A stretch of 22,654 bases of DNA from a virus: IMG/VR virus record IMGVR_UViG_3300010368_004406, positions 1 to 22,654 of that record; one strand, given 5' to 3'. The translations under genes were made by a program, and so were the position numbers. Positions within the stretch are counted from its first letter, which is position 1; every line of letters starts with the position of its first letter. Shown piece by piece: positions 2,134 through 15,958 of the stretch. The notes below the pieces were generated by a model. It had not been told where the DNA came from and did not search any database. It saw only the letters and a program-made list of their open reading frames with translations.

Positions 2134-5100
2134 ATGCCCCCTTTGACTATCGACTCGATGTACGCCGCTGCGCGCCAGACCAACCAGTCCGCTAATCGCG
2201 GCGCTCCGACCCCCGACAATTCGTACACCTCGGAAACCAACCCGCAGACGATCCTCCAAGACCCGCGCTTCCTGCGCGACTTGCGTGATTATTACGCCGA
2301 CCGTGGCGTCAGCTCTGCGTCCTACGAGACAGCCACTCAGCTCGTCGACCGCTTCTTTAGCGACGGTGTCTGGCGTCAGGCCAATACGGTTTCTGCCATC
2401 GGCTCGGCCATCGAAGCCAACACTGGCTCCGCCGATAGCCGCGCCCGCATGTCCCGCATCGAGCAGGCCTCCCGTGCCATGCCGATGTTCTGGCAAGAAG
2501 GCGGTCGGGGGTGGCGCGGTGTCGGCGATACCGTCGGCGCGATCCTCTCTGATCCAACCAATCTCGTTGGCGGCCTTGCCGCTGGTGGCGCTGCGCGTGT
2601 CGGAACCCGTTCTGCCATTGCCGCTGGCCGCTCTGTTGCTGGCCTGCGCGGCGCTGCTCGTGGTATCGGCGCAGCCGCGCTCACAGAAGGCGCAATCGGC
2701 GGCGCACAAGAAGCAATCGTCGACGCCTCCCTTCAAACCCGCGACATGGGCCTTGGCCTGCAAGACGGCTTCGACCGTGGCCGCTTGGCTACCTCCGCTG
2801 GGGTCGGCGCTCTCATGGGCGGCGCAATCGGCGGCGCAATCGGCGTGCCCGGCGCTCTGTCTGGCGCGAGCCAAGGCATGCGCGATGTGGCAACCGCAGC
2901 CCGCCACCAAATTCCAGCCGAAGACTTCGGACGCACGACCAGCCGCCAGTTCGATGAGCTTCAAGGCGCCGAATACGTTCCGCCACCAGCACCAGAAGTC
3001 GTGGAGGAGGTGGAGCCTGCGCCAGCACCAGAACTCTCCCCCGGCCTTGCCAATCTCGACACCGAACTAGCCACGCTTCGCAGCATGCACGAGGCAGAAA
3101 ATGCCGAACTGCGCTCTCGTGCAGCGGACGGCGCAGACACGTCTGAGCAAGAGCAAAATCTCACGATTTACAGCCGCCTCGCTCAAATCGGCAAACGCTT
3201 GGTTGCCGCCCAGACAGAGATCGACGCCCTTTACGCGACCAATGACGCGGCCTCGATCCGAACAGCCGACGCTCGCTCCGAAGCCCTCAACCGCGACCTC
3301 GCCAAGTTCTATGTCGCCATCCAAAACCCGGAACTTTCGACCGTCACCGAACTCCAGCGCCTCATGGAGCTGTATACTCCAGAGGCCGAGACAGCCGCAC
3401 CAGCAGCCGCCGCACCAGCGGCGACCCCAGCAACTCCACCCGCCGCCCCTGCCGCACCACCAGCCGAGCCAATTGCGCCAGCGGCACCTGCCGCTCCAGC
3501 GGCTCCCGCCGCACCTGTCCGCACATCGCCAGCCGCGCGCCAACTGGCCACCGATGCTGGCCTCGACCTCAACGAAATCGCGTCCTCCCGCGAAGACGGT
3601 TTCGTCACCGTGGAAGATGTGCGCCGCGCCGCCGCGAACCAAAACGAACCCGAACCAGTCATCGGCGTCGATGAGCCAGAGCTTCCCCCTGAAGTCGTTG
3701 CTGCCGACGCTGAAGCAGAGGTTGCTCCTGCCCCAGCCAAGACACGTCGCGCCCGCGCTGCCGCAGAGGAAATTGCTGCCCCGGCCACGCCAGAAGTCGT
3801 TTACGACAGCGACCGCTTCGCTCGCCTGCTGGCCAATGCCGAAGACGACCTCGAAGCCACGACAGCCAACACCGAGCTGGAAGAAATCCTTGATGAGATC
3901 GGCGACGACAACCACCTGTCTGACACCGAGCTGGCAGAGATTGTCGAGCTTATCGGTGCCAACAACCGCTGGCGCACCAATCACCTCGATCTTGGTGGGA
4001 TGGTCCGCTTTGCTGTGGAGAATGGCGAGCCTGCGCTCAACTCAGCCAGTGCTGGCCGCTCTCTCCAAGAAGCCATCGCCAGCCTCACCGATGAGCAGCG
4101 CAAGGTCTACGCAGACTTCCTGCGCGCCGAAATCGCAAACAACCCAGACATGCCTCAGCTTGATGCTGCCCGGAACGCCATCGACCGCCTTCAAGACGGC
4201 GGCGAAAGCGGCATCGAAGCCGACCTCTTGCCCGGACGCGAGGGCCGTCAGTCTGGCCGCCTTGTGCGCGATCCTGCCAACGCCAGTTTGTGGGTGACTG
4301 CCGGTCGCTCCAAGACAACTGGCCGCATCCAAAGCTTCCTGCGCCGTGGCCGTTCGATTGGCGGAGAAAATCCAGACTACACCATCACGGAAGGCGTGCC
4401 TTCGACCGCCGCCACCCTCAATGAAGAAGCTGCCCGCGCCGAAATGGCGCTCAACAAGGGCCTTCGCCATATGCCGTTTTCGGCAACGGCGCGCACAAAA
4501 GTCGTGGGCGTTCGTGGCGGGCAAGTCCGCAGGGGCACAATCGTCATTGCCGACGGCACTTCGGACAAGAACTACCTGTCCATGGAAGACCTGCGCAATG
4601 CGCGGGGCGAAGGGCCAGCCACGGCAGCCGAGCCTACTGCCGCCATCCCCGCTGGCATCACTGGCGCATACGGTGTGCGCACCAATGCCCTCAAGAAAAT
4701 CGTCCGCGACTTCATGGGTGATCCTGCTGGCGCGCTCGAAGCCCTCAAAACAATCAACCGTGGCCGCCCAGCGCCCCGCGCACGCCGCTCTGGTGGCCGT
4801 GAGGCGCAGGCAGCCAAGCGCAAGGCAATCGCACTAGCAAATGGCGTGGTCGAGCCTGACGCAGACCTGTTGGACGCTCAAGCCGCCGTCAATCCACCCG
4901 AGGGCATGCTCCTGCTTATCCGCCGCAGGACTGGCGACCGCGTCATTCGCCTCCAAGGCAAGCACCAAAAGGAAAAGGGCGTCAACTTCGCTGGCCTTGC
5001 CGGTGACGCCATGCCCGATCCCAACGATTGGGAAATTGCCTATGTACCAGACACGACCCGCGCCAAGGGAAACGAGGCTCTGGGTCTGCTTTGGAACAAG

Positions 5101-8100
5101 ACAAAGGCCGACGAGGCCAGCGCGACCGAGTACGACTACACGATCCTCACCGACGAAGGCGCGGAGTTGCAGGGCAAGTTTGTCCAAGAACCCATCGACT
5201 TCGACACCGAAGCCGGACGCTCCCGTACCACAGCCCCACTGACCGAACACGAGGTCGCCATCCTCAATTTTGTTGCGTCTATTTCAAGTCCGGGCATGCG
5301 GCGAGGGCGGTTGGCCGAGGGCGATAACATCAGTCTCAGAGCGCTCGTTTACTTGACCGATGTCTTTGAGACCTCGTCTTGGGCCGCCATCGCCGGACGC
5401 AAAGACCCCATCTCTGGTTCCGACATGGCCAACGTGTCGCTCTTTTTGAACGAACTCGTCGACAAGTATGTCGGCGGCGGCTGGAAAAAGGGCAACATTG
5501 AACGCGCCGCATCCGTTGACGCGCTGACAAAAACCATCGGCGACTACACGCCAGAAGAAATCGCCGAGGCGAAATTCTTCCTTGAGCATCGCCTTGTTGG
5601 TGATGGCGACGGCATGCTGCCAGACTTCAAAGCAACTCTCAGCACCAACAGTCTGGAAAGGTCTGCCGCTGGCAAGCAGCACATCAATCTCGGCACTCGT
5701 GGCGAGCAAAAGGGAGACGGCAACTTCACGCCGCGCCTCCAAATCCTGTATCACGAGATTGGCCATTGGGCGTATGCGAACGTCCTCAGCGCACAAGACA
5801 AAGCAACTTTCTGGCGCGCTATGTCTGGCCACTTGGTCAACGAGCGTGGTCGCCAGCCGGGTGGACCTTCATTCCGAGACGGCATCCCAGCGCCCGAAAG
5901 CCTGAAAGCCTCCGATCCAAATCCTATCGCGGGCCGCTACCCGGATGGGAACTACGGCAACACAGAGCTTTCCCCCGGCGAGCTGTGGGCCGACCAGTTC
6001 TCGGCGTGGGTTGTCCAAAACCTTGAGAAGTCGCTCGTCCGCGATCTGCCATACTGGGAGCGCATGGGCCATGTTGTGAAAGAAATCTTCCAGCGTTTCA
6101 CTGGCAGGAAGAAAGCTTTCTATGACCCGGCACTGGTGCCGCTGTTCCAGCGCGTCATGCCTGACGAATACGTCTCCAAGACAGGAAAGCTTCGCGTCGA
6201 GGGTCTGCCAAAGGGCAAAGCCACCACCGTCGTCACACCCAAGAAACCAAAGGCTGATCCGAACGGTGCGCCAGATGCCGCGCCGACGGCAGATCAAGTC
6301 ATTGCCGAGCCGCTCACGCCAGTTGGTATCGTCATGCACCGCCGCCTTGTCGAACTCGACATGACGCAAAACGAAATCCATGCCGCCATCTCCTCTGGCA
6401 GCCCGGACGCCATCATCAATGCCTTCGAAAACTACCGCACAAACCTGCTCTCGCTGTTCACATACGGCAAGAAAGCCCCTGCCCTGAAAGCCGTTAGTCG
6501 CCGTCGCTGGTATGCGAAACAGCGCATCGACGCCATTGACGAAATCATCAAGGGAGCGCCGGTCGAAGGGCGGTCCTCGACCTACACCCCCAAAGAACTC
6601 TCCGATGTCTTCAATGCTGGCGACAGCGTCGACGATGTCGGCGAGCCAGCTCTGGTGAATTGGGATGATTACGAGCGCATGAGTGTGTCTGGCGACCCTC
6701 AAGAGATCGCCGACAACCTGATCGACTACTACTATTACGGCTACAAGAACTTCACCCCGTCCAACGGTGTGCCGAAGGTCATCAAGTCCATCGAGCAGAC
6801 GGGCGGATACCAGTTCATCGACACCCTGCGCAAAGACCTGACCGGAACCTTCGTTTCCCAAGAAGGCGGCCTCCCTCTGGCCCCGACAAACCGCGTCCCT
6901 GACTTTCTGCCAGAAGACGTCTATGTCGTCGAACTCGCCAAAGCCCGCAAGGTCATCAAGCGCAATCGTATGCGTGATGCCCGCGTCGACATGGCAGCCG
7001 AAGATGCCGCTGCGGCAACAACCAAGAAGCCTCGCAGCAAACGCCGCCAGAAAGCAGCCGACGCCAGTATCGAGCGCAAAAACCCTACTCCGAAATCAAG
7101 ACAAGACCTTCGCACGCGCCCCCACAAGGACGTGCTGGAGTTCTACAAGGCCAACAAAGAGACGCCGGAAGGCGACGATGCAGCCTTCATCTTGATGGAG
7201 AAGCGTCGCGCCCAGACAGTCGAGATCACGGTCGCAAAAAATCCCGAGCGCGACGCAGCAATGCTCAAATTCAACACTCGTGAGCTGTCACTCTTGTTCT
7301 CCGAGGCTCTGGCCAAGAACAAGAAGGCCGACATCGACATCTATGGCCATGAAATCCAGCGCCGCCAGACAAAGCGCACGTTGAAGCCCAAGAAAACCTC
7401 TCAGGCCTCGTTGTCGCCCTCGCGTGTGCATCGCAACATCAAAGACGAGATCGCTGATCGCGCCGGAACACCAGCCGATGACGGCATCCCGCGCAAGGCG
7501 CGGCCCGCTGTCCGCGAGCTTCTGTCTTTCATCACGCACCGCGACCCCGAGGTTCAATACACGGCGCGCATGACCCTCTACCGCATGCTCAACCTGCTCG
7601 GCAAAACCTCAAACCGCGTTGTCGACAACATCGAAGTGATGACGACCGACCAAGTCATTGCCCGCATGATTACTGGCAGCGACATCTCTGTGATGGCGGG
7701 CCTCGACGCTGGCCAATCGTCTGGCATTGCCGTCGACTTCCGCTCGCCAGCCTTCAAAAAGCTCCGGGCTGACCAGCGACGCATCGCAATTGGTCTGACG
7801 AAGGGCACATCTTCGCCCGAAGAAGTCATGCACGAGGTGGCTCACAGCCTCGTCCGCTCGCGCCTGATCCCCGGTGCCGAAGGCGCCTCGATCACGAGTG
7901 CTTTCCGTGGTGCATCGGACAAGATCAAGGAGCGCGTGATGAACGATTACGCCTCCAAGTACAACGACCTGTCTCCATCGGCCCGTGAAGCAGCGGTCGC
8001 CGAGGAATGGTTCTCTGAGAGCCTCGTCGAATACCTGTCTGAGCGGATCACCCGTGAAGATTACGCCGCAAAATATGGTGCAGGACTTCGTGGCGAGGAA

Positions 8101-11100
8101 CGTGGGAAGCTCATGGCCGCCCTCGACCGCGCCATTGAATACGTCTCGTATATCTTGAACGGCATGGTCGGGCGCGACGACATCAAACAGGTGTTCCGTC
8201 GGATCACCTTCTATGGCGATATGTTCGAGGCTCCAGACAGCGGCGCACTTCGTCGCCCGAGCCAGTATTCCTATGCTTCGTCCGAAGCTGCCGGTGCTGC
8301 CGACGAAATCCTGCGCATGTCGCCCAAGGCTCGCCGGGAATTGATGCTGGAATACATCGACAACGGCTACGGTCTTGGCGAAGACGGCGAAATTCTCACC
8401 TTCTATCATGGCACCCCGAACGGCAAAGCCGCCTCCGCCGATGACTACTTCTTGGAGCCAAGCATGCGTGGCGATTATGGTCGGGGCATCTATGTCACGA
8501 GCAGCCCTCGCGTGGCCGACGAAGTCTATGGTCGCAACCCCACCGTTGGCGCAATGATCGCCAAATTCACCAAAGACAACCCAACCGCCGCTCAATCCAC
8601 CCACGATGAGTTCGCTTATTGGGCCTCAATGCTGGGCAATTCCCGGTCAGAGCTGCGCGCTGCGCGCGTCGAATACACAGAGCTTCTGATGGACATCCAG
8701 AAGTCCGAAGACGCAGGCGACGAGGTGAACGCATTTATTTTGCGCGAGGAACTGAACGAAGATCGTCTGGAACTCGAAGAACTGATGATCGCCGAGCGCG
8801 AAGATGCCGCTCATCTGGCGGCCATGGGATATGAAGACGTTCCTGATGTCTTGCCTCTGGTCATTCGCCTTCAGAACCCGGTTGATTTCACCCCCGCTGC
8901 CAAGCACACCCTCGGCGGCGACCTTGTCGCGGGCCTCACCGAGCGTCTTGCTGACAGTCTCGGCGAAGACGCGTCCGAGTTTGCGCGGAAGGTTTCCACC
9001 AAGCTCCACAATATCGCCGACACTTCACCAAGTGGCGTAACGTACCTGAACGGCGAAGACCTTTACCGGAGCTTGGTCGACTTGACCAAGCGTGGACCCG
9101 ACAACGCGACCATCTCAAGGGTCCGCGAAGACGCAGCCAAAGACCTGATTACCGAAGCCCTTCAAGACATGGGGCACGATGGCCTCATCACCACGCATTA
9201 CAATAATGTTTCGGACCCCGACATTGCGCCATTCGGCCTCAAGCGGGAATTTCACGAGACGGTTGTTCTCTTTGACTCAGCGCAAGCCAAGCACCTACAG
9301 GCGACCGACTTCGACAAGGCAGACCCGATCATCCGGCACAACGCCCGCGATGAAATCCCCAAGGGGGTCACGGGCGGGATTGTCGCTGCGCTCATGCACA
9401 GCGAGAGCAAAAACCTGACCATGGCCGACCTGCCTATGGGGCCAATCGGAGAGGAACTCGTCGCCAAAAACGTGACGAGTGACTATGTCGACATGCTGGC
9501 CACCATTGCCCGGCGTCGTGAGCCTTCGAACACTGAGATCGAGAAGGCAAACAAGCTGGCTCCGTTCGGTTTCTTGCAGGAAACATCTACCCGGATGAAG
9601 CGTATGGGCTTCAACTGGGCTGCCGACTGGTACAAGACAACATTTGTCGAGCGCCAGAACACGTTTGCGCGCAAATTCTACCCGCTCAATAATGCTCTGC
9701 GCGCCCTCCCCGATGCGCGCGGTCACATTGGCCGCTGGTTCGATGGGGCTACCGCCAACCTGCGGAAGCAGCCCGAAAGCTATCGTCGCATCGAGGGTGC
9801 GCTTCGCTTCGGTGATGGCTCCCGCCAAGAGGCGGCCCTGTCTACGCAAGAACGCGAGATTTACCGCTCGTTCCGCCAAGCCTTCAAGCGTGAGCGCGAC
9901 GAGCTGATCTCTGCTGGCGTGATGGTCGGTGGGCGAGACAACTACTACCCACAGGTCTGGAACCAAGAGGCTATCCGGCGTGACCGGGAAGGCTTCCTTT
10001 CCAACATGGCCGACTATTATCAGGCCGAGCGCCTCAAGGCAGGGGAAGACCCAGCTCCAGAAGTCGACGCACAGGACTTCGCGCAGACCATGATGGAGCG
10101 CTTGTCTGGCGACAACTCCGACGGCGTCTGGGTTGGCGAACATCAGCCACAGGCTACCGGCCTGCGAGCCGATCACATCGACTTCTCTCGTGTGATCGAA
10201 CTCGAAAAGCACCCCGAGATGATGAAGCGGCTTGAGCCATTCCTCGTGAATGACCTCGAACTGATGACCATCAAGTATTTCGACGGGACATCTCGCCGCC
10301 TGTCCAACGTCAAAAAGATGGGCGTGAACAATCACGCCTTCTACGACTACATGAAGGTCGCATCGGGCGGCAGCGAGGCTATCGCAACCCTCCTGTCTCA
10401 CCCGAAGGTGTTCTCCCGCGACATCACGTCATTCGACGGCGTGCGCTATGGGCATCACGAACTCACGCGCGACATGCGCTTGCCCTTCATCGGAAACGAA
10501 GTCGGGGCCAAGGAATTTGCAGACCAACTTCTAGCGGAGTTCAAAGAGCAGGGCACCAATGGCCCGGCGCACGCACGCCGTCGCCTTATGGAAGCCATCG
10601 GGGAAGTCGGCACCAGCACCGATTACGAACGCCGCGTCGAGGCCATTGTCGGCGGCCTCCAAGACTTCGGTGGTGAGCCGAAATCCTTGACCTCAGACAA
10701 GCCGCACTTCGACTTCGCCGAAGACGCCCTCCGTCTGGCCATGAAGCACCCGATTGGCGAGAGCCAAAAGACCCTTCGCCGGGCGTCCGGGGCGTTCCGT
10801 ACAATGAACAATGTTTCGTTGCTGGGCTTCACTGTCTTGTCGTCGCTCGGCGACGTGGCGCTGCCGATTATTCGGTCAGGCTCCTTCTCCTCGTGGACGA
10901 AGGCGATGACCAAGTTTGCGGGCGACAAAGAGTACCGCCAGATGATCGTCAATGTCGGCGTGGCCATGGAGAATATCGTCCATGAGCGCATGGTCGGCAT
11001 GTACGGGGCGACCGATGGCAAGCTCTCCACCGCCTTCTTCAACATGACTGGCCTCACGCCTTGGACGGACGTTCAGCGTCAGCTCGCTGGCGCAACAGGC

Positions 11101-12042
11101 CTCGAAGCCTTCCGCACCATGCAGCGTCGCGCCTCCAAGAGCTATCGCCCCGGCGTTGAAATCGGCCAACAAAGCACCGACTACAAAACCTCGGCGCGCT
11201 TCCTCAAGCGCTATGGTCTTGGCGACTTCTTGCCCGACGGCCCTCGCGCGAATGAGTCACTCGAAACGCAGAAGCTTCTCCAAGACGATGCGGGCCTCGG
11301 GATGGCGATTATCCAGTTTTCTGACGAGGCTATCTTCCAGCCGAACCCGAATGACATTCCAATGTGGGCGCAAACCCCTATTGGCGCGATGATCTTCCAG
11401 TTCAAGTCGTTCCCTCTGATGATGGGCCGCCTGTCTGGCTATGTCGTGGAGGAGTTCATGGCCGGAAATCCGAAGCCTGCCCTCTATCTGGCGACGTTTG
11501 GGGTTGGCTCTGGCGCAATCGCCTACGCATCCAAGGACATTATCCAAGGACGTGGCGGCGATGAGCGCCGTGAACACACCATCAGCCAGCCAAATGTCCT
11601 CGACGCCATCGGCTACGATGCCGAGACACACGGCGACGTGGGCAACTACATGAACTGGTATTTCGCTGGCCTGTTGCAGATGGGCGGAATGGGCCTGCTG
11701 GGCGACGCCATGTTTGGCATCATCGACCAAGCCGACAACGGCGCATACGGCAAGACACGCATCACATCGCTTCTCTTTGGCCCGTCTGTCGGCCTCGGCT
11801 ACTCGGCCATCGAAGTTGGTGCGGGTGTCGCTGACGCAGCCTTCGGCGACGGGTCGTCCAATGCCCAAGCCCGGTCCTCGACGCGCGAGCTTGCGACACG
11901 CATCCCGATTGCTGGCGGTGTCCGGTCATTGCGCGAACAGGCCGTCGACGTTGTCGCGGGACGATCATCTACCAGTCAGCGTGAGACAGGCATCGGATCG
12001 AGTGAGCTTGGTGAAAGCGAACTCGGGGAAAGTGAGCTGTAA
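2134..12042 (+). CDS. Giant polyvalent virion protein with PSBD-like, two metalloprotease-like and ADP-ribosyltransferase-like domains, 3302 aa
   Basis: ATG at 2134 has GGAG eight bases upstream. Domains in order: Gly/Ala-rich, membrane-active-looking stretches (about residues 130-250); helical/coiled region (300-420); Ala/Pro linker (about 420-462); E3-binding/PSBD-like motif (464-503, SPAAR...GLDL...GFVTVEDV); first zinc-protease motif HEIGH (1207-1211) with acidic ELWAD at about 1283; basic linker (about 1620-1660); second motif HEVAH (1900-1904) with EEWFSE at 1957-1962; ADP-ribosyltransferase-like domain with FYHGT (2090-2094), GIYVT (2118-2122), DGLI (2349-2352) and FDSAQAK (2380-2386), giving an H-Y-Q triad; and a hydrophobic C-terminal part (about 2890-3200, including QFKSFP). 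It ends in SELGE repeats. Large proteins mixing proteases, ARTs and linker domains are known as phage polyvalent proteins, thought to be packaged and ejected into the host. Host targets are inferred, not shown. No transglycosylase motif was seen. The frame is intact for 9.9 kb. Confidence 0.9.
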   Translation: MPPLTIDSMYAAARQTNQSANRGAPTPDNSYTSETNPQTILQDPRFLRDLRDYYADRGVSSASYETATQLVDRFFSDGVWRQANTVSAIGSAIEANTGSADSRARMSRIEQASRAMPMFWQEGGRGWRGVGDTVGAILSDPTNLVGGLAAGGAARVGTRSAIAAGRSVAGLRGAARGIGAAALTEGAIGGAQEAIVDASLQTRDMGLGLQDGFDRGRLATSAGVGALMGGAIGGAIGVPGALSGASQGMRDVATAARHQIPAEDFGRTTSRQFDELQGAEYVPPPAPEVVEEVEPAPAPELSPGLANLDTELATLRSMHEAENAELRSRAADGADTSEQEQNLTIYSRLAQIGKRLVAAQTEIDALYATNDAASIRTADARSEALNRDLAKFYVAIQNPELSTVTELQRLMELYTPEAETAAPAAAAPAATPATPPAAPAAPPAEPIAPAAPAAPAAPAAPVRTSPAARQLATDAGLDLNEIASSREDGFVTVEDVRRAAANQNEPEPVIGVDEPELPPEVVAADAEAEVAPAPAKTRRARAAAEEIAAPATPEVVYDSDRFARLLANAEDDLEATTANTELEEILDEIGDDNHLSDTELAEIVELIGANNRWRTNHLDLGGMVRFAVENGEPALNSASAGRSLQEAIASLTDEQRKVYADFLRAEIANNPDMPQLDAARNAIDRLQDGGESGIEADLLPGREGRQSGRLVRDPANASLWVTAGRSKTTGRIQSFLRRGRSIGGENPDYTITEGVPSTAATLNEEAARAEMALNKGLRHMPFSATARTKVVGVRGGQVRRGTIVIADGTSDKNYLSMEDLRNARGEGPATAAEPTAAIPAGITGAYGVRTNALKKIVRDFMGDPAGALEALKTINRGRPAPRARRSGGREAQAAKRKAIALANGVVEPDADLLDAQAAVNPPEGMLLLIRRRTGDRVIRLQGKHQKEKGVNFAGLAGDAMPDPNDWEIAYVPDTTRAKGNEALGLLWNKTKADEASATEYDYTILTDEGAELQGKFVQEPIDFDTEAGRSRTTAPLTEHEVAILNFVASISSPGMRRGRLAEGDNISLRALVYLTDVFETSSWAAIAGRKDPISGSDMANVSLFLNELVDKYVGGGWKKGNIERAASVDALTKTIGDYTPEEIAEAKFFLEHRLVGDGDGMLPDFKATLSTNSLERSAAGKQHINLGTRGEQKGDGNFTPRLQILYHEIGHWAYANVLSAQDKATFWRAMSGHLVNERGRQPGGPSFRDGIPAPESLKASDPNPIAGRYPDGNYGNTELSPGELWADQFSAWVVQNLEKSLVRDLPYWERMGHVVKEIFQRFTGRKKAFYDPALVPLFQRVMPDEYVSKTGKLRVEGLPKGKATTVVTPKKPKADPNGAPDAAPTADQVIAEPLTPVGIVMHRRLVELDMTQNEIHAAISSGSPDAIINAFENYRTNLLSLFTYGKKAPALKAVSRRRWYAKQRIDAIDEIIKGAPVEGRSSTYTPKELSDVFNAGDSVDDVGEPALVNWDDYERMSVSGDPQEIADNLIDYYYYGYKNFTPSNGVPKVIKSIEQTGGYQFIDTLRKDLTGTFVSQEGGLPLAPTNRVPDFLPEDVYVVELAKARKVIKRNRMRDARVDMAAEDAAAATTKKPRSKRRQKAADASIERKNPTPKSRQDLRTRPHKDVLEFYKANKETPEGDDAAFILMEKRRAQTVEITVAKNPERDAAMLKFNTRELSLLFSEALAKNKKADIDIYGHEIQRRQTKRTLKPKKTSQASLSPSRVHRNIKDEIADRAGTPADDGIPRKARPAVRELLSFITHRDPEVQYTARMTLYRMLNLLGKTSNRVVDNIEVMTTDQVIARMITGSDISVMAGLDAGQSSGIAVDFRSPAFKKLRADQRRIAIGLTKGTSSPEEVMHEVAHSLVRSRLIPGAEGASITSAFRGASDKIKERVMNDYASKYNDLSPSAREAAVAEEWFSESLVEYLSERITREDYAAKYGAGLRGEERGKLMAALDRAIEYVSYILNGMVGRDDIKQVFRRITFYGDMFEAPDSGALRRPSQYSYASSEAAGAADEILRMSPKARRELMLEYIDNGYGLGEDGEILTFYHGTPNGKAASADDYFLEPSMRGDYGRGIYVTSSPRVADEVYGRNPTVGAMIAKFTKDNPTAAQSTHDEFAYWASMLGNSRSELRAARVEYTELLMDIQKSEDAGDEVNAFILREELNEDRLELEELMIAEREDAAHLAAMGYEDVPDVLPLVIRLQNPVDFTPAAKHTLGGDLVAGLTERLADSLGEDASEFARKVSTKLHNIADTSPSGVTYLNGEDLYRSLVDLTKRGPDNATISRVREDAAKDLITEALQDMGHDGLITTHYNNVSDPDIAPFGLKREFHETVVLFDSAQAKHLQATDFDKADPIIRHNARDEIPKGVTGGIVAALMHSESKNLTMADLPMGPIGEELVAKNVTSDYVDMLATIARRREPSNTEIEKANKLAPFGFLQETSTRMKRMGFNWAADWYKTTFVERQNTFARKFYPLNNALRALPDARGHIGRWFDGATANLRKQPESYRRIEGALRFGDGSRQEAALSTQEREIYRSFRQAFKRERDELISAGVMVGGRDNYYPQVWNQEAIRRDREGFLSNMADYYQAERLKAGEDPAPEVDAQDFAQTMMERLSGDNSDGVWVGEHQPQATGLRADHIDFSRVIELEKHPEMMKRLEPFLVNDLELMTIKYFDGTSRRLSNVKKMGVNNHAFYDYMKVASGGSEAIATLLSHPKVFSRDITSFDGVRYGHHELTRDMRLPFIGNEVGAKEFADQLLAEFKEQGTNGPAHARRRLMEAIGEVGTSTDYERRVEAIVGGLQDFGGEPKSLTSDKPHFDFAEDALRLAMKHPIGESQKTLRRASGAFRTMNNVSLLGFTVLSSLGDVALPIIRSGSFSSWTKAMTKFAGDKEYRQMIVNVGVAMENIVHERMVGMYGATDGKLSTAFFNMTGLTPWTDVQRQLAGATGLEAFRTMQRRASKSYRPGVEIGQQSTDYKTSARFLKRYGLGDFLPDGPRANESLETQKLLQDDAGLGMAIIQFSDEAIFQPNPNDIPMWAQTPIGAMIFQFKSFPLMMGRLSGYVVEEFMAGNPKPALYLATFGVGSGAIAYASKDIIQGRGGDERREHTISQPNVLDAIGYDAETHGDVGNYMNWYFAGLLQMGGMGLLGDAMFGIIDQADNGAYGKTRITSLLFGPSVGLGYSAIEVGAGVADAAFGDGSSNAQARSSTRELATRIPIAGGVRSLREQAVDVVAGRSSTSQRETGIGSSELGESELGESEL

Positions 12043-13608: not shown

Positions 13609-14469
13609 CTACTCCTTGGGGTCGACGATGAAGCGTTGGTATGAGCCACAGGCTTCATGGGCATCGATCTTGAACTTCGTACACTCCCAATCTCCATTTG
13701 GCTTGGGGCGTGAGAAGGCGCAGGTAGGGCAAGAGGGAACAACCTCTTGAAGCTCCGGCTCCCAGCACGCCGAGCGCTTAAAGCAACCCTTGCAACGCCA
13801 GTCCAACGGGTCAGGTGATACCCGTTTCTTTGCACTACCGGCAAGAACATTTTTTATCCGCTCGCAGATGAACGCGTATTCAAGCTCATCGAAGTCAACA
13901 ATTTCCGCGTGGTATCTTGAATTGTTTTTGCAGATCGCCAGCATGAGAGCCTGCCGCATGCCCGACATACCAAGCATCATCTGCATCTGAGCATAGTACG
14001 AAGGATGCGAGCGCTTGATGCCGACCTTCATAAATTTTTCGAAGGATGCCAAGTTCATCGACTTGATTTCCAGCACGCGAACTTCCTCATCGGCGAACTC
14101 GATGTGCCCATCCATATGACACACCACATGGCCACCCCACTCGGTGTAGGCGAATTGTTTTCCGGTGACGCCATCAACCTCCCACATGCTGATGCCAGCC
14201 ATCTTTTTGAGGTCGGCCACAACCATGTCTTCCAGCGCATGGCCAAGCTTGAAGATACGCGCCAGCCCCGGCTCGGGCGGATCATTGGGGAAGCCGCGCA
14301 TCGAGAGCGTCAGGTTCGCGTCACAGGTATTCCCGATTGAACTGGCCCCGATATAGCGGCGCGGCTTTTCTTTTTGGCTGGCTCGGTAGCCCTCGTTGAT
14401 TGCATCTACAACATCGGAAGCCGTCTTGATTGGTATGGCTGTCTTGGTTGGGTTAGTTGTTTTTGTCAT
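13609..14469 (-). CDS. Cas4/RecB-like PD-(D/E)XK exonuclease with predicted Fe-S cluster, 286 aa
   Basis: The nuclease core shows the GHALE motif (residues 76-80), D120 in the MDGH block, E134-x-K136 in LEIKS, and a Q161-containing YYAQMQ motif, the order found in Cas4, AddB and RecB-family nucleases. Cys49, placed before the core, plus C226-x2-C229-x5-C235 at the C-terminus matches the four-Cys 4Fe-4S arrangement of Cas4/AddB. A second Cys set follows (C247-x2-C250, C263, C274), possibly a zinc ribbon. I chose ATG at 14469 rather than 14493 because GGAG stands nine bases before it. Likely role: resects double-stranded DNA ends to give single strands for the Sak4/SSB-like pair encoded upstream. 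A strong terminator separates it from those genes, so it may be expressed at a lower level by read-through. Confidence 0.87.
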   Translation of the reverse strand: MTKTTNPTKTAIPIKTASDVVDAINEGYRASQKEKPRRYIGASSIGNTCDANLTLSMRGFPNDPPEPGLARIFKLGHALEDMVVADLKKMAGISMWEVDGVTGKQFAYTEWGGHVVCHMDGHIEFADEEVRVLEIKSMNLASFEKFMKVGIKRSHPSYYAQMQMMLGMSGMRQALMLAICKNNSRYHAEIVDFDELEYAFICERIKNVLAGSAKKRVSPDPLDWRCKGCFKRSACWEPELQEVVPSCPTCAFSRPKPNGDWECTKFKIDAHEACGSYQRFIVDPKE

Positions 14470-14506
14470 TTGTAGTAACTCCATTAACCGCAATCAAAAC
14501 CCGATC

Positions 14507-14542
14507 AAAAAAAAGAGGCGCGCAGTTTGTCTTGCGCGCCTC
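14507..14542 (-). terminator. Strong intrinsic terminator (leftward)
   Basis: Read leftward, GAGGCGCGCA and TGCGCGCCTC form a perfect 10-bp GC-rich stem with an 8-base loop, followed immediately by eight U (A-tract at 14507-14514). It lies after the SSB-like gene and before the Cas4-like gene, so it ends or attenuates the recombination operon. No convincing promoter with room for a leader lies between it and the nuclease gene. Confidence 0.9.
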
Positions 14543-14588
14543 AGTCGTCGGCAGGTGGGAGGGTTGGTGCCGCCCACTTATTGTCGGA

Positions 14589-15122
14589 CTAGAAAGGGAT
14601 TTCGTCGTCCATGTCTTTGTGCGCACCGCCGCCAGATCGTTGCGCACTACCGGCGCTCGACAGGCTCGACAGATCAGCCGGTGTCTCGGTGGGCGTGGTG
14701 AACTTGTCGAAGTCAGCGACAGGGAAGAAGCGCTTGGCCTCAACGGACTGGCGCTTCTCGCCCTTGTTGTTCAGGTACGGCTTCCCGTATCCGATAATCA
14801 CGCCGACAGTCAGGTTGTTCAGGGAAGTAATGTCCCCCGGACGGTCTGGTGACGGGTGCGCGGCACTGATCAGAAAGCTCTTGAGTTGCGAGAGCGCAAT
14901 CTCTTGTGCCTTCGCCGATGTGTGATGGATATTGAACCCGACGCGCAGGTCGCCACCGCCCTGAGTATCCGTCAGCACTATGGTCAGGCGGCGGTTCGTT
15001 GTCTGGCCAACCTGTTCCACCTTGGCGTCGCCGACATTGACGATGTATTTGCCAGCACCGAGCATAGCGGTGCTGCCTTCGATGGTAGACAGATCGAGTG
15101 CGTCAAAACCATTCCAGCTCAT
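14589..15122 (-). CDS. DUF669/SSB-like single-strand DNA-binding protein, 177 aa
   Basis: The N-terminal about 115 residues look like the beta-rich DUF669 phage family (GKYIVNVGDAKVEQ, RRLTIVLTDT, LKSFLISA), which is often encoded beside recombination ATPases and nucleases. A Gly/Ser/Ala-rich disordered region follows, and the protein ends in DDEIPF, the acidic-hydrophobic tip of bacterial single-strand DNA-binding proteins (DDDIPF in E. coli SSB) that recruits partner enzymes. Its ATG overlaps the stop of the Sak4-like gene by one base (TAATG), with AAGGAT inside that gene as ribosome binding site. Likely role: coats phage single strands and recruits the Sak4-like annealing/recombinase protein. 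It is the last gene before the strong terminator. The DUF669 assignment is from memory of the family pattern. Confidence 0.8.
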   Translation of the reverse strand: MSWNGFDALDLSTIEGSTAMLGAGKYIVNVGDAKVEQVGQTTNRRLTIVLTDTQGGGDLRVGFNIHHTSAKAQEIALSQLKSFLISAAHPSPDRPGDITSLNNLTVGVIIGYGKPYLNNKGEKRQSVEAKRFFPVADFDKFTTPTETPADLSSLSSAGSAQRSGGGAHKDMDDEIPF

Positions 15123-15958
15123 TATTTGGTATCCTTCGTGTTAACAGTGACCGTTTCGCTTTTGGCTTCGGTCGGCTCTGAGGGGGCTGCTTTGTGCATG
15201 GCCTGATAGTCTTTCTCCGAGAGGCTCATGCGATGGAGAAGTTCGGTGACGTCAGACACAGGCTCTTGAGGCTTGAGGCGACCGCGTGGATCGCGGACCT
15301 TCCCATGCCAGCCTGAGACTTCATCGGTAATGACGAAGCGACGAACTCGCGCCACGCCCTTGTCGTCACGCTCGGTACTGCGCACGCCACACAGGACGTG
15401 ATCGAACAGAGCGGGGACTTGCTTGGAAACCTTGTTGCCCTTGACCAGAGGCCAGAAGTGGGTGGTTCCGTTGGCGTCGCTTTCTTCGCCAGCAAGACAC
15501 GTCACATAGACGTGCATCGGCAGATCGCGGACCCACTTGAGGGAGCCGATCATCAGGCGCGAATAGTCTTGCCAGATGGCGAAGCCGCCCTCCGGGTTCT
15601 CGCGCTCAAGGTGTTCGAGTAGGCGCTCGGACACTTCGGTCAGGCTGTCGATGGCGATCCAATTGTACCCGGCTTCGCGGAACTCTTTCGAGTGCAGCAT
15701 TTTCACGATGCCGCGAAAGGAATAGATGCCGCTCTCAGGATCGTGCTTCCCATCCCAAGACACGAACGGCAGGTAATCAATGTCGCAGTCTTCGAGGGAT
15801 TTCAGACCGCTCTCGCCAGAGATAATCAGACCCTTTCCGTAGCGCGCCTGATAGTAGCGTGTCTGGTACGTCTTGCCGAAGCCGTGGTGCGAGTAGAGCA
15901 GAACCTTTGTCGGCCCATTCTCCTGCAACTCAGACGTATTCATAGTGGCGAAGCTCAT
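15122..15958 (-). CDS. Sak4-type RecA-like ATPase (AAA_24), phage recombinase, 278 aa
   Basis: A Walker A-like loop, SHHGFGKT (residues 23-30), and a Walker B strand, WIAIDS (100-105, Asp104), frame a small RecA core, followed by a sensor-like strand (VYVTC, 150-154). This size and motif order is that of the Sak4/AAA_24 phage nucleotide-binding proteins, RecA-core proteins that promote annealing or strand exchange together with a phage SSB. The first residue of Walker A is Ser instead of the usual Gly. ATG at 15958 has AAGGA six bases upstream. The gene overlaps the SSB-like gene by one base, supporting a Sak4-SSB pair. The last roughly 30 residues are a charged, probably disordered tail (EPTEAKSETVTVNTKDTK). 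Confidence 0.85.
   Translation of the reverse strand: MSFATMNTSELQENGPTKVLLYSHHGFGKTYQTRYYQARYGKGLIISGESGLKSLEDCDIDYLPFVSWDGKHDPESGIYSFRGIVKMLHSKEFREAGYNWIAIDSLTEVSERLLEHLERENPEGGFAIWQDYSRLMIGSLKWVRDLPMHVYVTCLAGEESDANGTTHFWPLVKGNKVSKQVPALFDHVLCGVRSTERDDKGVARVRRFVITDEVSGWHGKVRDPRGRLKPQEPVSDVTELLHRMSLSEKDYQAMHKAAPSEPTEAKSETVTVNTKDTK

Follow-up and report, generated by a model that had tools for sequence, protein, structure and literature searches.

A putative protein-docking module of the E2 peripheral subunit-binding fold in the giant internal virion protein of CRP-810-type roseophages

What is a peripheral subunit-binding domain (PSBD), the domain with which E2 acyltransferases bind another protein non-covalently, doing inside a giant phage virion protein? 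No report of a phage virion protein carrying a PSBD was found in the literature, mostly outside subscription journals. The question arises from the window analyzed here, the whole 22,654-base virus record IMGVR_UViG_3300010368_004406, which is a fragment of a phage genome. An initial annotation had described an E2-like linker followed by a PSBD-like domain at positions 3391-3642, which correspond, as stated there, to residues 420-502 of a 3302-aa open reading frame.

The gene holding this region (2134..12042, on the plus strand, as are all the features of its product given below) is a single uninterrupted open frame, identified as that of a giant internal virion or polyvalent protein by tblastn and BLASTP comparison with phage CRP-810 and by PHROG 684. 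It was verified that CRP-810 similarity covers 83% of the N-terminal 2822 aa (tblastn), and that the remainder is covered by CRP-810 gp36/gp35/gp34 (BLASTP). The N-terminal region, residues 25-276 (2206..2961), matches the CRP-810 'internal virion protein D' at 42% (tblastn, E 6e-31), parts of it being also matched, more weakly, by the internal virion protein D of pelagiphages. At the other end of the protein, the virion structural region (10762..11130) is recognized by PHROG 684 'virion structural protein' (E 2.8e-15), and identity to CRP-810 gp34 is 48% over 831 aa. CRP-810, whose gp36 is annotated as internal virion protein D, is the nearest described relative of the window phage, and this homology assigns the protein to the T7 gp16-like 'internal virion protein D' family found in CRP-810-type roseophages. 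Phages of this type form a family with a global distribution, and the host of CRP-810 belongs to the CHUG lineage of Roseobacter (PMC11288001).

Between its two ends, the chain carries two HExxH motifs found by motif scan, HEIGH at residue 1207 (5752..5766; HELAH in CRP-810) and HEVAH at residue 1900 (7831..7845; HEIGH in CRP-810), each possibly belonging to a zincin peptidase, and both without a family match. Additionally, residues 2083-2154 (8380..8595) resemble the ART-PolyVal domain with 22.6 bits (E 2e-4), below the Pfam cutoff of 31.2, and CRP-810 gp35 also matches it with 24.0 bits. An endolysin gene follows in the window, as in the late/lysis region of CRP-810. Considering the internal virion protein D annotation of its relatives and its polyvalent-protein architecture, the 3302-aa chain probably travels in the particle and leaves it together with the DNA; the virion context and entry into the cell supposed by the initial annotation agree with this. 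Further along the window, a minus-strand replication/recombination block (13609-15958), comprising a Cas4-type exonuclease, a PHROG 2300 protein and a Sak4-like ATPase, keeps the gene order of CRP-810, and the GC skew switches after 12 kb.

The PSBD (E3_binding) domain occupies residues 462-497 (3517..3624). When the full 3302-aa protein was compared with Pfam E3_binding (PF02817), it scored 28.9 bits against a curated cutoff of 23.7 (E 1.4e-6), with coverage of positions 1-36 of 36, and the domain alone reached 36.7 bits (hmmscan). A PDB sequence search (phmmer) with the domain returned E2 PSBDs, the best with E 4e-6. In a tblastn search of plasmids, the annotated records matched by the domain were all E2 genes, at 39-50% identity, apart from a 'sigma factor region 1.1' match, which was rejected as a chance similarity in an unrelated protein. 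Additionally, an E2-PSBD profile, built from E2s that were partly found by similarity to the window, gave 51.8 bits to the real 43 residues, at most 8.8 to 5000 shuffles and -3.3 to the reversed sequence; since this profile was partly seeded in that way, the Pfam score is the unbiased one. In phage records, tblastn with the domain gave no match, and an E2 PSBD query gave E2-like matches only, the annotated ones being E2 genes; these matches are probably host DNA.

The AlphaFold2 model of a 57-residue construct, with a mean pLDDT of 75.8 and values of 84-89 over residues 11-40, shows the order strand-helix-turn-loop-strand-helix, as in PSBDs, with helices at construct residues 11-20 and 38-49. 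When this model was used as a Foldseek query, ranks 1-34 were PSBD or E2 entries, with modest E-values (best 1.5e-3) owing to the shortness of the domain. Structural alignment by VIA-align gave Z 6.6 and 1.0 Å over 40 residues with 2eq9_C, a PSBD solved with lipoamide dehydrogenase, and Z 6.5 and 1.4 Å over 42 residues with 1w85_I, a PSBD solved with E1, in comparison with Z 3.8 and below for unrelated rows. No non-E2 fold close to the PSBDs was found with VIA-align, an absence that in itself proves nothing. The models indicate that the window domain would adopt the PSBD fold of two parallel helices separated by a helix-like turn, a loop and a short strand, at about 1 Å rmsd from E3-bound PSBDs, with the reservation that in a domain of only ~36 residues a common fold does not show a common function. 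By profile score and predicted fold, the match is confirmed as a genuine PSBD, and the PSBD pattern that the initial annotation had read in a phage protein was recovered both by the Pfam search, significant at residues 462-497, and by the fold prediction. As a separate observation, the predicted-structure library BFVD contains a 243-aa viral protein, R4THZ4, with a PSBD-like match (Foldseek probability 1.0, E 0.024), and the viral use of PSBDs may therefore be wider.

The domain has counterparts in related phages. The C-terminal part of the giant protein is encoded in 52 further loci, in many of which the giant gene is one ORF of about 3150-3300 aa, and an HMM of these relatives places an equivalent domain at the same position in nearly all intact orthologues, with a more divergent version in L015, L024 and L054. 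This 45-residue slot, with the consensus ISxELRGRALAxGxDWRxLxPSxxSKxGRITKGxxxxAI, directly precedes a conserved 'DPYAxxVxxELDDI'-like stretch. Four relatives (L019, L040, L042 and L046) exceed the Pfam E3_binding cutoff unaided, the others falling below it, and L046 forms a bridge between both groups of domains, the phage profile giving it 40.7 bits and the E2 profile 37.7. Alignment by hhalign of 11 Pfam-negative relatives with 20 E2 PSBDs gave 92.3%. When all 57-residue segments along the alignment of one orthologue were compared with the E2 profile, those over the slot gave 88%, 63% and 37%; no partly overlapping or adjacent segment exceeded 28%, and none elsewhere in the protein exceeded 7.6%. 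A model predicted from Pfam-negative relatives only also had PSBD or E2 entries at Foldseek ranks 1-30. Since an hmmsearch of PDB sequences with the profile of these relatives finds no E2s, their connection with PSBDs rests on hhalign and fold. Same-place equivalents whose profile and independently predicted model point to a PSBD establish a PSBD-type domain as a conserved module at a fixed position across this phage protein family.

Two other features of the relatives were recorded. A further module of ~55 aa lies upstream of the slot, between acidic linkers, in L002 (the gp35 N-terminus of the CRP-810 isolate, ISNGRVRLGKNGRLTNQSIAEI), L010, L018, L023, L037, L040, L046, L064 and L068, and is absent from the window protein; this module (GRVRLGKNGRLTNQS) was considered as a second PSBD and rejected, since segments over it score only about 2% against the E2 profile. 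In addition, the giant gene, a single ORF in most relatives, is broken up into three overlapping ORFs in the CRP-810 isolate (L002, 9956-19596) and in L014 (1413-11269), at different places; this may reflect frameshifts, either from sequencing or programmed, or a genuine split of the gene.

What such a module could do is suggested by its surroundings. A composition scan identified an Ala/Pro linker at residues 418-462 (3385..3519), whose DNA is partly tandem-repetitive and which, with 84% Ala+Pro, is by far the richest 45-aa stretch of the 3302-aa protein, the next one having 47%; the run of about 45 Ala/Pro residues described by the initial annotation, in an E2-like layout, is in fact present. 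After the domain, a second linker, rich in Ala, Pro and Glu, extends over residues 505-560 (3646..3813; 47% Ala+Pro at residue 515). Because linkers are found on both sides, the PSBD is a bead between two flexible stretches. We consider that the PSBD-fold module of the CRP-810-type giant virion protein is a putative protein-docking bead, with a probability of roughly 0.6. According to this proposal, the giant chain, with its PSBD between two flexible linkers, would enter the cell with the DNA, and the PSBD would act as a small, flexibly tethered docking bead that binds another protein non-covalently, as in E2, and thereby links the N-terminal part of the chain, which would belong to the ejection apparatus, to that partner. 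As the partner, another virion or ejection protein appears a little more likely than host E1 or E3, since the domain is conserved in a structural gene and its variation in surface charge would be tolerated if the partner co-evolves. Some observations weaken the proposal: the window domain scores only 7.7 bits on the relatives' profile, the strong Ala/Pro linker is restricted to the window copy, the linker of the relatives being A/P/E/T-rich or partly structured, and the ~36-residue domain yields no Foldseek E-value better than the modest one given above.

The same peculiarities of the window copy raise the question of its origin, and the best surviving alternative is that its linker and PSBD were acquired together from a bacterial E2 gene and took the place of an older phage version, the domain perhaps serving as little more than a spacer. 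Such an origin is compatible with the functional readings. It is favored by the E2 profile, on which the window domain reaches 51.9 bits, against its 7.7 on the relatives' profile, and by a tree in which a supported split (100/95) groups it with the E2s. In addition, its E2-like linker is exceptional among the relatives, although Ala/Pro linkers also arise without capture, since L032 has such a run ahead of a phage-type domain. However, similarity to the window was among the grounds on which the E2s for comparison were selected, which favors this placement, and an AU test on 37 columns did not reject a single clade of all phage copies (p 0.18). Moreover, an exact 8-mer scan of about 85,000 genomes with the domain surroundings found no close relative, and no close relatives were found by an exact-peptide scan of viral contigs with the residues around the domain or by a genome scan with the C-terminal region of the giant protein. 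A separate capture from an E2 gene is possible on sequence grounds rather than demonstrated, and we regard it as tentative, with the odds leaning against it.

A second alternative concerns the partner. The PSBD could dock the injected protein onto E1 or E3 of the host pyruvate or 2-oxoglutarate dehydrogenase complexes, where it would deliver neighboring enzyme domains to central metabolism or compete with the E2 of the host. The predicted fold is the very one by which E2 docks, and identity between the window domain and bacterial E2 PSBDs reaches about 49-50%; the Ala/Pro linker layout is also that of the Rhodovulum E2. In the Bacillus E2 PSBD, we take R135, R139, R146, K153 and R156, in a numbering that we assume, to be the basic contacts with E1/E3. 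Most relatives are basic at three or four of these five positions, those matching R135, R146, K153 and R156, which is consistent with such docking. The window copy, on the other hand, is basic at only one of them (R469, T473, N480, E487 and F490), and the net charge of its core is -3, the lowest among the 37 PSBD-type domains compared, the 21 E2s ranging from -1 to +4 and most relatives from +2 to +6. PSBD surfaces are rich in positive charge (PMC6270654), and in E3 recruitment the charged side chains of helix 1 have been described as forming an electrostatic zipper (PMC9974300). The slot of the relatives also differs in its helix-1 pattern (RGRAL). Several genuine E2s in the comparison set also keep only the first arginine, so that the lost basic positions only make E1/E3 docking less likely. 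Host E1/E3 docking would agree with the fold and with the basic surface seen in many relatives, but poorly with the acidic window copy; we consider it unlikely.

The initial annotation had suggested that the domain could bring an enzyme cargo to host E1/E3. Its reading is supported as regards the PSBD fold and the E2-like Ala/Pro layout in a probably ejected kind of virion protein, and is not supported so far as regards docking to host E1/E3. The lipoyl domain PF00364 was not found in the window record or in six longer relatives, 14 of 14 control genomes being matched, nor was the catalytic 2-oxoacid_dh domain PF00198 found in the same records, an observation that applies to the window as a fragment and not to the whole phage. 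As the lipoyl and catalytic E2 domains were not found, the giant phage protein, judged by its domain content, is not an E2, which also speaks against an E2-like role at host E1/E3. What stands of the cargo idea are the weak ADP-ribosyltransferase match and the two HExxH motifs within the same chain. The most far-reaching version, in which CRP-810-type phages would inject a giant protein hitching via an E2-type PSBD onto host pyruvate or 2-oxoglutarate dehydrogenase E1 or E3, placing ADP-ribosyltransferase-like or peptidase-like regions on central carbon metabolism as infection starts, seems improbable.

A third alternative, also raised by the initial annotation, is that the PSBD binds nucleic acid in the manner of the Lsr2 C-terminal domain and thereby anchors the protein to the DNA inside the capsid or on its way into the cell. 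In most relatives, the slot is basic and carries GR or GK in its loop, which would suit such contacts, but that of the window copy is acidic, with REDGF as its loop. An hmmscan of 12 slot members up to E 10 returned E3_binding only, with no Lsr2, SAP, Rho_N or HeH, with the caveat that HMMER filters can lose weak matches; the Lsr2 family PF11774 presumably represents the N-terminal end of Lsr2, the wrong end for a test of DNA binding. In the fold lists, no nucleic-acid-binding PSBD-like structure ranked above the E2 PSBDs. DNA-binding domains, among them the small Rho-N/SAP HEH fold, are known from polyvalent proteins (PMC5512222). The basic relatives keep part of this suggestion alive, and the acidic window copy, without a match to those families, tells against the rest, so that DNA contact is rated as quite improbable. 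Finally, an accidental similarity of a helical segment within an Ala-rich protein, which the short domain and its Ala/Pro-rich surroundings might invite, is refuted by the shuffles, the Pfam score, and the same slot and fold predicted in relatives without the window sequence.

The PSBD is thus kept as a module in a giant protein, probably an ejected one, throughout a marine phage family of global distribution. If the domain binds a protein, the partner could be fished with a ~40-residue domain, which would make it testable what giant ejected proteins hold on to. Were the partner host E1 or E3, a new route from the phage particle to host central metabolism would emerge.

Among known systems, the Lsr2 C-terminal DNA-binding domain has a related PSBD-like two-helix fold, from which the window copy differs in its acidity and in giving no profile match. 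The E2 acyltransferase PSBD (PF02817) is closer, sharing with the window copy a sequence above the cutoff, a two-helix fold at about 1 Å and a preceding Ala/Pro linker. Unlike it, the window copy lies in a 3302-aa virion protein, is acidic, reads SSR where E2 PSBDs have the GTG loop, and has lost most of the contacts that we assume. The internal virion protein D of CRP-810 is homologous to the window protein along nearly its whole length (gp36-gp35-gp34) and carries at the same place, in gp35, a diverged counterpart of the domain; it differs by its three overlapping ORFs, a domain missed by Pfam, a linker that is not an Ala/Pro run, and the extra upstream module. The survey of phage polyvalent proteins by Iyer et al. 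(PMC5512222) nowhere uses the terms 'E3-binding' and 'peripheral subunit' in its main text. Those proteins, for which injection along with the DNA has been proposed, resemble the window protein in being giant multidomain chains among late or virion genes, with an ART-like region and HExxH motifs (PMC5512222).
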